Made by a program: the position numbers and the translations under genes. Below are positions 18,316 through 46,343 of a stretch of 64,000 nucleotides of DNA, one piece after another. The notes below the pieces were generated by a model. The model did not search any database, was not told the DNA's origin, and saw nothing but the letters and a program-made list of their open reading frames with translations. Positions within the stretch are counted from its first letter, which is position 1, and each line of letters starts with the position of its first letter. Source of the DNA: Sphingomonadaceae bacterium (lineage in GTDB: Bacteria; Pseudomonadota; Alphaproteobacteria; Sphingomonadales; Sphingomonadaceae); NCBI GenBank assembly GCA_947472735.1, contig CANJBY010000004.1, positions 24,311-88,310 of the forward strand, given 5' to 3'.

Positions 18316-18531
18316 ATGATCGCCCAGAGCCACCCCAACGCCCTCGCGCCCGACCAGATGACGCCCGATGCCCGGATCGCCGAGTTGGGGCGCATCGTCG
18401 CCGCCGGCGTGCTGCGGCTGCGCGAACAGTCCAGTTCTATATCTGCCCACGGTGGAGATAGTTCTCTCGCTATCTCGCCCACCAGGAGCGTCAGTCGTCC
18501 CCGGGCAAAAGCCCGGAATGGAGGACGATAA
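18316..18531 (+). CDS. Small hypothetical protein of recombinase cassette
   Basis: 71 aa, immediately upstream of DUF2924 gene, 1-nt overlap. Confidence 0.5.
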   Translation: MIAQSHPNALAPDQMTPDARIAELGRIVAAGVLRLREQSSSISAHGGDSSLAISPTRSVSRPRAKARNGGR

Positions 18532-18992
18532 TGCACAAACAGGATGACAATGCGCTGGTGCTGGCCAGGCTGGCGGCGCTGAAAGACATGTCGGTCAAAC
18601 AGCTGAAGGCCGAATGGGCAAAGCTGTTCGAGACAGAGGCGCCCAACAACAGCCGGTCGTTCCTCGAGCAGCGGCTGGCCTACCGGATCCAGGAGCTGAC
18701 GTTTGGCGGCCTGTCGAAGCCGGCGCGCCAGCTGCTCGACGCGCTGGCGGACGAGGTTGAGGGCAAGAAGGTCAGGAAATCGGTGATTTCCGACCCGCGC
18801 AATCCGGTGATCGGCACGCGCCTCGTGCGCGAATGGAACGGGGCGGAGCACGTCATCACCGTATTGAAGGACGGGTTCGACTGGCAGGGGCGCCGCTACA
18901 AATCGCTGTCGGCCATCGCACGGGACATCACCGGCACGCAGTGGAACGGCTATCGTTTCTTTGGCCTGCGGGAACGGAAGGACGCAGCATGA
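18531..18992 (+). CDS. DUF2924 family protein
   Basis: LKAEWAKLFETEAPNNSRSFLEQRLAYRIQEL...GTRLVREWNGAEHVITVLKDGFDWQGRRYKSLSAIARDITGTQWNGYRFFGL. Confidence 0.85.
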   Translation: MHKQDDNALVLARLAALKDMSVKQLKAEWAKLFETEAPNNSRSFLEQRLAYRIQELTFGGLSKPARQLLDALADEVEGKKVRKSVISDPRNPVIGTRLVREWNGAEHVITVLKDGFDWQGRRYKSLSAIARDITGTQWNGYRFFGLRERKDAA

Positions 18993-20308
18993 CCGATACG
19001 ACACCCCGGCGGCGCCTGCGCTGCGCCGTCTACACCCGCAAATCCAGCGAGGAAGGGTTGGACATGGAGTTCAACAGCCTCGACGCCCAGCGCGAGTCCT
19101 GCGAGGCCTATGTTGCCAGCCAGCGCGCCGAAGGCTGGGTCTGCATGCGCGAACGCTACGACGACGGCGGGTATTCTGGCGGCTCGCTCGAACGCCCCGG
19201 TCTCAAGGCCCTGCTGGAAGATGTCGAGGCCGGCCTGGTCGACGTCATCGTCGTCTACAAGATCGACCGCCTGTCACGCTCGCTGATGGACTTCGCCAAG
19301 CTGGTCGAGGCCTTCGACCGCAACAACGTGACGTTCGTGTCGGTGACGCAGGCGTTCAATACCACGACCAGCATGGGCCGGCTGACGCTCAACATCCTGC
19401 TGTCCTTCGCCCAGTTCGAACGCGAGGTCACCGGCGAACGGATCCGTGACAAGTTCGCGGCCAGCCGCGCCAAGGGCATGTGGATGGGCGGGTTCGTACC
19501 GATGGGGTACGACGTCGTCGACCGGAAGCTGGTGATCAACGAAGCCGAGGCCGCTGCGGTCCGCCATATGTTCCAGAGGTTTGTCGAGCTGGGATCGGCG
19601 ACGCTGCTGACCCGGGAACTGGTGGCAAGCGGCACCCTCAACAAGCGCGGCAAACCGATCGACAAGGGGTTCCTGTACAAGCTGCTGCGCAACCGGCTCT
19701 ATATCGGCGAAGCGGTGCACAAGGGCACCAGCTATCCCGGCGAGCATCAGGCCATCATTGACGAGCCGCTGTGGGATCAGGTCCATGCCATCCTGCAGGA
19801 GAGCCCGCGCCAGCGCGCTGCCAACACCCGCACCCAGACGCCAGCGTTGCTCAAGGGGCTCATCTTCACCGATCGGGGTATCGCCATGACGCCGACGGTC
19901 ACCAAGAAGGGCAGCCGCCACTACCGCTACTACACCTCGATGGACGCCATCCGGAACCGGGCGTGTGAGGGCCGCGACAGCTTTGTCCGGCTCAATGCCG
20001 GCATGGTCGAGGGCGCAGTGGTACAGCACATCCGGTCACTGCTGCGCACGCCAGAAATCGCTGCACGGGCGATGGAAGCGACCCGCCGAACGGCACCGGA
20101 CATCGACGAGCAGGATGTGGTCACCGCCTTGTCGGGCTTTGACGGTCTCTGGGAATCGCTGTTCCCGGCCGAGCAGGCCCGGATCGCCCGGCTGCTGATC
20201 GAGCGGGTCACGGTCAGCGCCGATGGCCTTGCGGTCGACCTGCGCACTGAAGGCCTCGGATCGGTCATCCGGGAAATGGTCACGCCTAAACAGGAGCTGG
20301 CAGCATGA
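18989..20308 (+). CDS. Large serine recombinase
   Basis: CAVYTRKSSEEGLDMEFNSLDAQRESCEAY; YKIDRLSRSLMDFAKLVEAF; Recombinase domain. Confidence 0.93.
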   Translation: MTDTTPRRRLRCAVYTRKSSEEGLDMEFNSLDAQRESCEAYVASQRAEGWVCMRERYDDGGYSGGSLERPGLKALLEDVEAGLVDVIVVYKIDRLSRSLMDFAKLVEAFDRNNVTFVSVTQAFNTTTSMGRLTLNILLSFAQFEREVTGERIRDKFAASRAKGMWMGGFVPMGYDVVDRKLVINEAEAAAVRHMFQRFVELGSATLLTRELVASGTLNKRGKPIDKGFLYKLLRNRLYIGEAVHKGTSYPGEHQAIIDEPLWDQVHAILQESPRQRAANTRTQTPALLKGLIFTDRGIAMTPTVTKKGSRHYRYYTSMDAIRNRACEGRDSFVRLNAGMVEGAVVQHIRSLLRTPEIAARAMEATRRTAPDIDEQDVVTALSGFDGLWESLFPAEQARIARLLIERVTVSADGLAVDLRTEGLGSVIREMVTPKQELAA

Positions 20309-20946: not shown

Positions 20947-22002
20947 ATGCCAGACCGCGCTTCCGTAGTCAGTGAATTCGAGGCGCGCCTCAACGAGTTT
21001 CAGGAGGGGTACGAGTGGTCCGAATCCGATGGAATCTTGCGATCGTTCACCGTTGTCGGTGAACTCCTCGACGCCGCCTTCGACCCCGTAACGGCCGCGC
21101 GCGGTATGCAGGCCATGCGCCTAATAACTAACACGAAGCCCGCAGATCCAATCGATTGGTCAAAGCTTGGGGGAGAAGCCCCCGCCGACTGGGCTGAAAC
21201 CTGGGGCGACCTTGACGCCTTCAATGACTCGAGCTGGTCGTCACTCATGGAGGCTGCCCATAACCTGAATGCATTCGCCAATTTTGGCATTCTGCCCACT
21301 TGGGCCCTGTCCTTTGCCGACAGGAGTTCCGAGCAGTTCCATGATGTCCCGGCCTATGTCCGCGGCGCGGTCAACCAGCTCAACAGGTTCATCCAGTTGC
21401 TCCCGAAATCGTTGGACTTGTACGGCATCGAAAACATCGAGCGGACCTGCCTCGCTGCGATTGGGCGATTGAAGATCGACGCTAATGAGCCGCTCATCGT
21501 GCACGAGTTGGCGGCAGTGACCCAGGTCACCACCAAGCGCCTGCAAAATGCCATCTACGCGAAGTCCGCAGATGCTCCGATCGTGGCCAAGGACGGGACA
21601 ATTCCTGCTGCCGCTGCCCAACGTTGGCTCGACGCACGCGACTACAAGGCTTCAATCTGGCGCGAGTTCATCGCGTGCAAAGGTTGGGAAGAAGATGGCA
21701 ACGCCATCACCCCTGCCGCAACAGAAAACGAGGTCGGAGACTTCCTGTTCGTTCCCGAAGCCCGCGACGGCACAGTGTTCAGCCCGATTTCGTGTAAAAG
21801 AGGCGGCAAGAACGGCACAGCATATTACACAGTCGGGACAAAGGACGCCGAGGTCGACTACGAAGATTACGATGAGGCTCTTGCCGCGTTGTCGAAGATG
21901 TCGACGCCCCGCTGGCGCCGGCCGAACGAAAACGGAAACTTTGGCATCGTCAGCGCTGAACGCTGGCGCCGGCTAACCCGCGAAGAGCTGTTTGCCATCT
22001 GA
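20947..22002 (+). CDS. Hypothetical protein with central HTH-like segment
   Basis: 351 aa; IVHELAAVTQVTTKRLQNAIYAKS...IPAAAAQRWLDARDYKASIW; no family recognised. Confidence 0.65.
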   Translation: MPDRASVVSEFEARLNEFQEGYEWSESDGILRSFTVVGELLDAAFDPVTAARGMQAMRLITNTKPADPIDWSKLGGEAPADWAETWGDLDAFNDSSWSSLMEAAHNLNAFANFGILPTWALSFADRSSEQFHDVPAYVRGAVNQLNRFIQLLPKSLDLYGIENIERTCLAAIGRLKIDANEPLIVHELAAVTQVTTKRLQNAIYAKSADAPIVAKDGTIPAAAAQRWLDARDYKASIWREFIACKGWEEDGNAITPAATENEVGDFLFVPEARDGTVFSPISCKRGGKNGTAYYTVGTKDAEVDYEDYDEALAALSKMSTPRWRRPNENGNFGIVSAERWRRLTREELFAI

Positions 22003-22047
22003 CGACTTTTGAAACCCGTTCGACGCTCTTCGTCTGAGCGAGATTGA

Positions 22048-22238
22048 AAGCGACGTCGCGTGTCCTGCCTGACGCCCAACACCGCCCGCGACCTCGGTTG
22101 CGGGGGCCAGGTAACGCGACTGCTTCGTGCGATAGGGCCCGCCCTTCGCCTTGCAGCCGGAGGCAAGCGCCGCTCCGGATGAGCAGGATCGATTTAACCT
22201 TTCGGTCGACCTTGCTCCCTGAACGCGGGGACACGCGT
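22048..22238 (+). ncRNA. Candidate structured RNA / multi-hairpin intergenic region
   Basis: Nested AAGC..GTCGCGT/ACGCGAC..GCTT, CCTG/CAGG, CCCGCGAC-CTCG-GTTGCGGG; then CCGGAG/CTCCGG; GAGCAGGaTCGA/TCGAcCTTGCTC; ACGCG/CGCGT. Confidence 0.4.
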
Positions 22239-22284
22239 GACAGCCCGGAGAGACGGCACCCCAATCCGAGTAAAGAAGAATCTG

Positions 22285-22686
22285 ATGACCTACACCCCTA
22301 TGAAAGCTCTCATCATCGACGACCCCTGGATCAGCCATATCCTTGATGGCTCGAAGACATGGGAAATGCGCTCAAGGCCGACAAAAATCCGTGGGCAGTT
22401 CGGCCTGATCAAGAAGGGCAGCGGCGCCATTTCCGGCGTGGCCACACTTGTCGGTTGCGGCGAGCCTTTGCCCCCGGATGCCATGATCCGCGCCTTCGAC
22501 AAGCACCGGATTCCCGAGCAGATGATCCGTAGTGGCCAAGTCGCGAAGTGGAACTGCCCGTGGTTTCTATCCACCATACTAAAGCTCCTTCAACCCGTGC
22601 CCTATCGGCACAAGCCCGGCGCCGTCACATGGGTCAATCTTGAGCCGGAGGTGGCCGCTGCCGTCCGCGCTCAGCTCGCCGTTTGA
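22285..22686 (+). CDS. ASCH domain protein
   Basis: KALIIDDPWISHILDGSKTWEMRSRPTKIRGQFGLIKKGSGAISGVATLVGC. Confidence 0.75.
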   Translation: MTYTPMKALIIDDPWISHILDGSKTWEMRSRPTKIRGQFGLIKKGSGAISGVATLVGCGEPLPPDAMIRAFDKHRIPEQMIRSGQVAKWNCPWFLSTILKLLQPVPYRHKPGAVTWVNLEPEVAAAVRAQLAV

Positions 22687-22731
22687 ATTCTCGCAATTGA
22701 CCAGGCCGTCCCCAGCACAGGAGCTACGACC

Positions 22732-23121
22732 ATGACAATCATCGCTGACACAGACCTTGATCTTTTCTCTTATCCCTTCGCGAACACTGCCGCGACGAAG
22801 ATGCTGGCAGATGCCTTCGATACCCTCTGGAAAACACGCGGCGTGTCACAGCGGCAGGTGGCCGCAAAACTCGGATATCGAGGATCTGTGTGTCTCAGCC
22901 ACATGGCGACAGGTCGAATTTCCATCCCGGTAAGGCGAGTTCTGGACTTGGCGCGGGTACTCGAAATTGAACCAGCCGAACTGCTGCTCGCGGTTTTAGA
23001 ACAGCGGCACCCGGAAATCGCGTTCCGGGCACTTCTACAGCCTTTGATGCCTGACTCAACAAGATCAACCAATCACCGACGTTTAGCGTACGGCGGACCA
23101 CAGAATATCCAACAGGTATGA
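22732..23121 (+). CDS. XRE-family HTH regulator
   Basis: LWKTRGVSQRQVAAKLGYRGSVCLSHMATGRISIPVRRVLDLARVLEIEPAELL. Confidence 0.75.
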   Translation: MTIIADTDLDLFSYPFANTAATKMLADAFDTLWKTRGVSQRQVAAKLGYRGSVCLSHMATGRISIPVRRVLDLARVLEIEPAELLLAVLEQRHPEIAFRALLQPLMPDSTRSTNHRRLAYGGPQNIQQV

Positions 23122-23192
23122 CTAGAGTAGCCAACTACACGAGCAATTTACCTCGGATTCTCACATCGCTTTGGGTGCCGGGTTTGCCCTGA

Positions 23193-23346
23193 AAAGGTAT
23201 AGACGTGCGCGAGGCAGAAAAGCCCCGAAATGCGTCATTTCCGAGACTATACCTTCCTCGCCAAGGTTTAGGTGAAAAGAGACAAAAGCCGATCAGAGAC
23301 CAATTTCGCCGTTTCTGGCAGTCTCTGAGGTTTAGGCGCGATCGGC
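23193..23346. repeat. Repeat/dyad cluster: AAGGTATAG-like motifs and nested inverted repeats
   Basis: AAGGTATAGACG, CTATACCTT (inverted), AAGGTTTAGGTG, GAGGTTTAGGCG; GCCGATC..CAGAGAC..GTCTCTG..GATCGGC. Confidence 0.5.
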
Positions 23347-23414
23347 AAAACCGCGCGGAAGCTGGGGAATTCTTGGCCCCGTAAGGACTATCTCATTGAT
23401 TCGCATTAAGATGT

Positions 23415-23507
23415 TGGCGGAGCGGGAGGGATTCGAACCCTCGATACGCTTTTGACGTATACTCACTTTCCAGGCGAGCGCCTTCGACCACTCGGCCACC
23501 GCTCCGC
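23415..23507 (-). tRNA. tRNA-Ser(GGA)
   Basis: Reverse strand GCGGAGCGGTGGCCGAGTGGTCGAAGGCGCTCGCCTGGAAAGTGAG...TTCGAATCCCTCCCGCTCCGCCA, long variable arm. Confidence 0.95.
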
Positions 23508-23657
23508 ATGCACTGGAAGGCGCGCCCTAGCGTGCGGTGGGGGGTTTCGCAAGGCGTGGTGCGCTGGCAGGATGTGCGGGATGAGAGCTTTGACATTTCT
23601 GCCTGCCGCAGCCCGCGCGGTTGCCCTTCGCCTACCATCGTCACGGCAGGTTAAACC

Positions 23658-23984
23658 GTGAGCGGCTTTGGGACCGAAACCCTCACCCACACCGGCCAGA
23701 TATGGCGCTGGTCCGGCTCGGGTAATGGCGGCTCGTGGCACTTCCTGACCATCGACGGCGAAGCGGGCGAGGCGCTTTCGGGGACGGCGGTGATGCGGCG
23801 AACGGAGGGGACGATTGGCGGCTTCGGCTCGATCAAGGTCACCGCCCGGATCGGGGACAGCCGCTTCACTACGTCAGTCTTCCCGAGCAAGAGCGAAGGC
23901 TGGCTGCTGCCGGTCAAGGCCAGCGTGCGCAAGGCCGAGGGGCTGGCCGAGGGCGATGCGGTGGACGTGCAGCTTGAGTTCTAG
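23658..23984 (+). CDS. DUF1905 domain protein
   Basis: WHFLTIDGEAGEAL...GGFGSIKVTARIGDSRFTTSVFPSKSEGWLLPVKASVRKAEGLAEGDAVDV. Confidence 0.85.
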   Translation: MSGFGTETLTHTGQIWRWSGSGNGGSWHFLTIDGEAGEALSGTAVMRRTEGTIGGFGSIKVTARIGDSRFTTSVFPSKSEGWLLPVKASVRKAEGLAEGDAVDVQLEF

Positions 23985-23986
23985 GC

Positions 23987-24562
23987 TCAGTCCACCACCA
24001 GAAAATAGCGCACGTCCTCATTGCTGAGGTTCGCCACTTCGATCGTATAGCGCTGCGTGAATAGCGGGACCCAGCGGCAGGTGCCGCCGTGATTGGCTTC
24101 GCCCTGGCAGATGGTCCGGGCCTGCGGATCGATCACCCGCATTGCCACGCGTCCGCCGTTCGGCGCGGAGACGGCAATCTGCGCGCCGGTGCCGGAAAGG
24201 AACAGCTGCGCGAAGCTCTCCTTCGAGCCGGCCGCGATGCGCCCCGAGCGATAGCCGGGACCAAGCGTGCGACCACGCAAGGGTGGATCGGTAAAGGCGG
24301 CGTTGCTGCGCCAGGCACCCAGCGGATCATCCGCCGCGCCGGCCAGCGGATGGGCGCCAAGCCGGTCGATCAGAGCCACGGCCTGCCCCAGCGCCTGCCG
24401 GTCACCCGCCGCCTCGGCTGATGCAGCTGCGGCGAGGGCCAGAGCCAGCTGTTCGGCGCGGGTCGGTGCGGCCACGGCAGCGGGATCCATCTCCGCCCGC
24501 GCGCGGCCAGCGCATCCGGCCAGCACCATCAGGCCCGCCGCAACCATCACCGCAATCCGCAT
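23987..24562 (-). CDS. Putative lipoprotein
   Basis: 191 aa with MVLAGC lipobox. Confidence 0.65.
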   Translation of the reverse strand: MRIAVMVAAGLMVLAGCAGRARAEMDPAAVAAPTRAEQLALALAAAASAEAAGDRQALGQAVALIDRLGAHPLAGAADDPLGAWRSNAAFTDPPLRGRTLGPGYRSGRIAAGSKESFAQLFLSGTGAQIAVSAPNGGRVAMRVIDPQARTICQGEANHGGTCRWVPLFTQRYTIEVANLSNEDVRYFLVVD

Positions 24563-40377: not shown

Positions 40378-40433
40378 GTCCGGTCTGCTCGGGAAATGGG
40401 TGACCGGGCTTGCAATCCCGGCCACCCGCTCCT

Positions 40434-40634
40434 TCAGAAGGAGTGTCGGCTAGGCGCTTCTCTGCAATCCAACCGTTTTTGGAGCCAGTCGAGCACTTCA
40501 GCCTCAACCCATCCCACTCGGCTAGGGCCAAGGTGTACCCGCTTGGGGAATTGCCCGGCCTTTTCCAATCGTGCGATGTGCTGCGGTGAGTACAGAACCA
40601 ATTCCTTGAGCTGACGCTTTGATAGAATCCTCAT
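40434..40634 (-). CDS. AlpA-family DNA-binding regulator
   Basis: MRILSKRQLKELVLYSPQHIARLEKAGQFPKRVHLGPSRVGWVEAEVLDWLQKRL. Confidence 0.85.
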   Translation of the reverse strand: MRILSKRQLKELVLYSPQHIARLEKAGQFPKRVHLGPSRVGWVEAEVLDWLQKRLDCREAPSRHSF

Positions 40635-40847
40635 CACGATGTTCCCATGAAGAGAGCATCGCGATGCCCCGGTTACGACAATACCCAGGCGGGCTGACGT
40701 TATCAGGATCGTGAAGTGTCGCCAATGGACTGAGCATAGGTGCGCATCGCGTCTCATTGCTTCGCAGAGTTCAGGGTGGACCAAAGGGTGGGCCAAATTT
40801 CAGAGTGGCCCCTAAGGGGTTGAAATTAAGCTATAAAATTAGTGAAA

Positions 40848-46190: not shown

Positions 46191-46343
46191 TCCCTGGCGC
46201 ACCTGATCCGGCGTCTCTTGCGTTACGAGTCAGGCGCGCTAAGTACCCCTTCTCGGGGCAAAGCAACCTCCCGGTCAGGCGCCTGCGCCCAAGCGTTGCC
46301 TTGATCGTCCGCTGCTTCGCGGACGAAGAGGCATGGGATCGAC

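Follow-up and report, generated by a model that had tools for sequence, protein, structure and literature searches.

The put RNA of phage HK022 acts in cis through the zinc-binding domain of the β′ subunit of RNA polymerase (RNAP), suppressing both termination and pausing. It is built from two long stem-loops and a short triplex (PMC9378689). Antiterminators consisting of RNA only are known in put (PMC9378689) and in EAR and canT (PMC11658703), and the conAn2 antitermination RNA works together with a protein (PMC8955417). EAR, canT and conAn2 belong to Gram-positive bacteria and act in cis; they are located close to where a long operon or a mobile element begins (PMC11658703, PMC8955417).

In a stretch of 64,000 nucleotides from a Sphingomonadaceae bacterium (the window), positions 22217-22257 are a copy of a compact structured RNA whose core is carried by hundreds of unrelated phages and viral contigs. 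An H-type pseudoknot, a GAC(A) linker and the short P2 hairpin make up the copy, in the order S1a - (G)A - P1a - S1b - loop - P1b - GAC(A) - P2. It lies in the intergenic region 22003-22284, between the gene of a 351-aa protein and that of an ASCH-domain protein, the start codon of which is 27 nt 3′ of P2. The features of the locus are as follows.

20947-22002, + strand: 351-aa protein, function not assigned; upstream family A of the cassette
22048-22122, + strand: nested hairpin of the original prediction, unsupported as a conserved structure (z -0.64; arms broken in a relative)
22181-22217, + strand: long hairpin with loop (C)ACCUUU, common to window-type sphingomonad elements
22208-22265, + strand: match of covariance model R1 to the whole core (58 bits, E 2.4e-15); the score marks the extent only, since the 38 sequences of the model include the window copy
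22217-22230, + strand: pseudoknot arms S1, CCC 22217-22219 with GGG 22228-22230 (where the P1 loop begins)
22222-22238, + strand: P1, AACGC(G) 22222-22227 with (C)GCGT 22234-22238
22239-22242, + strand: conserved linker GACA, following the P1 arm ending in GU
22243-22257, + strand: P2 hairpin, GC-(C bulge)-CG, hexaloop GAGAGA 22248-22253, CGGC
22285-22686, + strand: ASCH-domain protein, cargo gene (PF04266, E 5.2e-5)
22732-23121, + strand: HTH_31 protein, second cargo gene (PF13560)
23418-23505: tRNA-Ser, after the HTH gene

P1 is formed by the pairs A22223-U22238, C22224-G22237, G22225-C22236, C22226-G22235 and G22227-C22234, the last of which is absent in some relatives. We are almost certain that this is a real structured RNA.

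A structured RNA in this region had been proposed before from the letters of the window, and this part of the original prediction is confirmed, but it was mistaken about the important hairpins and about the link to the ASCH gene. The complementary segments that it listed are all present where it had placed them. The large nested hairpin at 22048-22122 has the stability of shuffled sequences (z for 22040-22140, -0.64), and its AAGC/GCTT and GTCGCGT/ACGCGAC arms are disrupted without compensation in the closest relative, which is 92% identical over 266 nt. In the same relative the 22181 stem and the ACGCG/CGCGT hairpin (22223/22234) are undamaged, and the latter corresponds to P1 of the widespread covarying motif. 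The pseudoknot arms 22217-22219/22228-22230 and the hairpin 22243-22257 had been missed. Dinucleotide shuffling, which had been suggested as a check, gave only modestly better folding for the whole region (z -1.84 for 22040-22262 and -1.44 for 22048-22262), with better folding in the 3′ half (22150-22262, z -2.16) and not in the 5′ hairpin. That no ORF explains the region is borne out by this relative, where crossing ORFs lose their frame through a one-base indel. The full ~265 nt are common to one relative only (L002/L022/L390), and searches of plasmid and phage collections for conservation of the whole region returned nothing; the final ~45 nt recur in other sphingomonads before different genes.

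Lack of covariation had been named as a reason to abandon the prediction; it was looked for, and the RNA covaries in P1, P2 and the pseudoknot arms. P1 rows of the broad alignment (A1) were partly picked for complementarity and are biased, and the unbiased evidence consists of the permutation and arm-swap tests of P1, the tests of S1 and P2, and their repeat on an independent contig set. The P1 pattern GAC/GTC was found in 35 contigs and the swapped-arm control GAC/GAC in 1, and therefore P1 is a real helix; it was also examined by a permutation test and by pair counts. Of 131 nonredundant matches, 113 form at least 3 bp in P2, against 34 expected from permutation; in the independent set P2 is paired in 52 of 60, against 17.5. 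For S1, the ~10 nt before AAC form 3.58 bp with the first nucleotides of the P1 loop, compared with 2.91 bp with permuted partners (0/1000), and the independent set gave 3.13 versus 2.05 Watson-Crick bp (0/1000 permutations). When the linker was left unconstrained in the search, UGAC was retained in 45 of 55 matches, and with an unconstrained loop the hexaloop was still mostly GAGAGA. Unpaired GAC, AAC and GAGAGA are fixed, and the helices vary freely. An alignment of sphingomonads only (A2) is paired, but too highly conserved to reveal covariation.

The pattern GTGACAGCN{0,3}GGAGAGACGGC occurs in at least 118 viral stretches of IMG/VR, and P2-free patterns with P1 as GCC/GGC or GTC/GAC occur in at least 110 and at least 114, respectively. 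Matches come mostly from proteobacterial and in part from cyanobacterial phages, and the cultured phages with the motif include mEp390, Itty13, phiSHP3 and the phiCbK group; a few short matches found by BLAST only (e.g. RcCWillis) are possibly due to chance. Cellular genomes carry it sparsely (19 of 401 in the family set and 23 of 399 in the phylum set), as expected of mobile DNA. Rfam 15 gave no hit to the motif above any cut-off, whether in the window, in 22003-22300 alone (E limit 5), at sphingomonad loci (E limit 10) or at viral loci, and an RNA of ~45 nt spread over hundreds of viral contigs is uncatalogued there. Searches of the open-access literature, a scope outside which preprints and most subscription journals fall, found no description of it. 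Proteo-phage-1 RNA (RF03044), also a phage RNA, matched the 5′ half of one element with 20.7 bits (cut-off 42); this candidate was rejected, the match being below threshold and true Proteo-phage-1 loci being devoid of the motif. A reading of GAAC/GUGAC as a kink-turn was set aside for want of a conserved C-stem.

Counted in viral contigs of <58% GC, the next ORF downstream runs in the same direction as the element in 57 cases and against it in 11; upstream, the corresponding numbers are 40 and 24. Start codons concentrate 14-31 nt 3′ of P2, where the lower bound of 14 nt is set in part by the Shine-Dalgarno-like sequence required of candidates. A tRNA gene lies within 300 nt at 27 of 216 loci versus 7.7 expected, always on the same strand (27/27, and 8/8 in the independent set, 35/35 over both), and about half of the 27 begin 6-15 nt 3′ of P2. 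Among neighbouring copies less than 500 nt apart, 48 pairs are on the same strand and 0 on opposite strands; tandem copies occur in Itty13, a Planktothrix phage and a phiCbK-like phage. Genes of many sorts follow the element, among them those for methyltransferases, DNA polymerase, primase and head-tail adaptors, and one for a Tad2-like anti-defence protein. In mEp390 and Medea1 the element marks the beginning of the early operon, next to cI; it lies in Itty13 upstream of the terminase and late operon, in phiSHP3 3′ of the capsid gene, and in phiCbK-like phages and MD18 between tRNA genes; a counter-example is Alexa, where the closest gene annotated downstream faces the opposite way. The location at operon starts in co-direction with the operon is that of a processive antitermination element, but divergent upstream genes exceed the background only modestly (7/24 versus 25/147). 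No partner gene accompanies the element. From this arrangement the element is very probably a cis leader.

Some details of these neighbourhoods deserve mention. Viral contigs L205, L236 and L245 contain arrays of three to four copies, mostly spaced by ~65-73 or ~145 nt, and the L205 array of ~65-nt units is directly 3′ of tRNA-Met; in some of these arrays a degenerate P1 lead has GAC replacing AAC. Locus L289, from a cellular genome, has four model matches in tandem. In some mobile elements (L397, L398, L209, L134 and others) the product of the gene before the motif has an acidic, SSB-like C-terminal tail (...PF stop); a fixed association with ssb was rejected, since such a tail precedes only 4 of 198. 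In the alignment of viral downstream genes (A3), the protein directly behind one element resembles Thoeris anti-defence 2 (Tad2), and the element may aid in finding early anti-defence genes.

Recurrence before unrelated genes and tRNAs indicates a general, host-directed function. Since tRNAs and ORFs both lie downstream, no partner gene is present and some copies are at operon starts, the host transcription machinery is the most likely target; and since copies are found before tRNAs and any ORFs, unterminated and sometimes in tandem, an effect on RNAP or on transcript processing is more economical than one on translation of a single gene. We therefore lean, tentatively, towards a compact cis leader RNA of phages and mobile elements that acts most likely at the level of transcription through host machinery. 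In such a model, the nascent transcript would fold into the pseudoknot (S1 and P1), the GAC(A) linker and the GAGAGA-hexaloop hairpin, and the element would act in cis, forming the final folded portion of the leader immediately ahead of a gene, tRNA or whole operon, whatever the identity of the downstream gene. By analogy with HK022 put RNA, it might modify host RNAP and cause read-through; the window copy would be a leader of phage origin that drives an accessory cassette (ASCH and HTH).

A put-like effect on transcription is our best but unproven guess, and antitermination proper is possible but doubtful. Like put (putL/putR), the motif is a phage-borne, compact and highly structured nascent RNA without a partner gene, with several copies per genome, some at early-operon starts. 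However, its sequence and fold differ from those of put, its occurrence is far wider, and antitermination by it is only putative. Neither the motif nor R1 found a match in the HK022 genome, which carries put, and this counts against put-like antitermination; identity with put RNA was rejected on this absence and on the different fold. Antitermination would also call for intrinsic terminators within the downstream operons; with a simple predictor these showed no enrichment downstream of the element, which may speak against it. EAR, canT and conAn2, compared by description, share with the motif the character of a cis RNA close to an operon start, but they are Gram-positive, whereas the motif belongs to proteobacterial and some cyanobacterial phages, and canT has ~340-450 nt whereas the motif core has ~45 nt. 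It is plausible, with the same reserve, that the motif represents a general and new class of processive antitermination RNAs that need no protein (or a new class of small ribozyme), with a fold unrelated to put, used as a plug-in leader ahead of any gene or tRNA in phages of Proteobacteria and some cyanobacteria and co-opted by accessory cassettes of bacterial islands. If it is an antiterminator, put would become a common phage strategy rather than a curiosity of one phage group; if it is a ribozyme, one more ribozyme class would be added. The element is small, backed by covariation and present in cultured phages, and therefore its action is directly testable.

The main rival is a small self-cleaving ribozyme or a host RNase site that creates the 5′ terminus of the mRNA or tRNA behind it, which we judge rather unlikely. 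The short distances to start codons and to the 5′ ends of tRNAs would be explained equally well by processing or 5′-end formation: tRNAs begin 6-15 nt after P2, ORF starts cluster shortly 3′ of it, and ~65-nt units stand in tandem beside a tRNA. A pseudoknot plus hairpin with ~15 fixed, partly unpaired nucleotides, in which GAC, AAC and GAGAGA are constant and the helices free to vary, would also suit a ribozyme. However, no Rfam family matched, known ribozymes included, and 5′ of S1 conservation is confined to family-specific domains.

The peak of start codons 14-31 nt after P2 and the downstream strand bias could alternatively reflect a translational enhancer, a standby site or a stability element that shields or presents the Shine-Dalgarno sequence. 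The same motif, however, directly precedes untranslated tRNAs and occurs in tandem copies, and this explanation is unlikely. A riboswitch-like or trans-acting RNA that carries a sensing domain on its 5′ side (165 nt in enterobacterial phages, ~220 nt in the window) would account for 5′ domains that are conserved and paired within families, but downstream genes share nothing and neither a terminator nor an own 3′ end was found, so this is improbable. A terminated small RNA was rejected, no terminator having been found after P2. Scans of the window found no promoter, which counts against the favoured leader model.

An RNA partner or antitoxin-like RNA of the ASCH protein, as the original prediction envisaged in cis or in trans, is extremely improbable: the two are adjacent only in the window and L002/L390, among ASCH relatives the element occurs only in the 90%-identical L002/L013, and those elsewhere (rhizobia and others) are without it. 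In other sphingomonads the gene behind the element is a DUF4357 or a glycosylase-like one, and in phages it can be any gene or a tRNA. The ASCH linkage is incidental, and what stands of the partner idea is a cis-acting structured RNA.

In enterobacterial phages, a unit of ~165 nt with its own paired helices moves between gene contexts, often directly 3′ of an intrinsic terminator and before unrelated genes. This version was found at L071, L085, L094, L119, L132, L150, L133 and L458, and its 5′ helices covary (GUUGU/ACAAC versus GGUUAU/AUAACC). Nine window-type sphingomonad elements keep the (C)ACCUUU loop, and their stem sequences differ. Sphingomonad loci have a cassette layout in which one of two uncharacterised protein families is followed by the RNA element and then by exchangeable cargo (20947-23121 in the window, L391, L393, L395, L399 and L408); the cargo comprises ASCH, glycosylase-like, DUF4357 and other genes. 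The cassette is possibly a regulated accessory or defence cassette, and PADLOC matched no defence system in the sphingomonad cassettes.

The 351-aa protein (20947-22002) had no match in Pfam, NCBIfam or PADLOC; it is 52% identical to the product of the gene preceding the L393 element, and its predicted fold, with a pLDDT of 38, is uninformative. GC content drops from ~65% to 59% across 21000-23999 and a large serine recombinase, CcrB-like by an NCBIfam match below cut-off, is encoded at 18833-20308; therefore the region around the ASCH gene is probably an acquired cassette. A DUF2924 gene and the recombinase gene span 18531-20308, upstream of the cassette and near tRNA-Ser, and probably represent an integrative island. 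Elsewhere in the window, Rfam matched Trans44 sRNA at 40405-40666 (203 bits) and chrB-b RNA at 46253-46299 (47 bits), both unrelated to the leader element.
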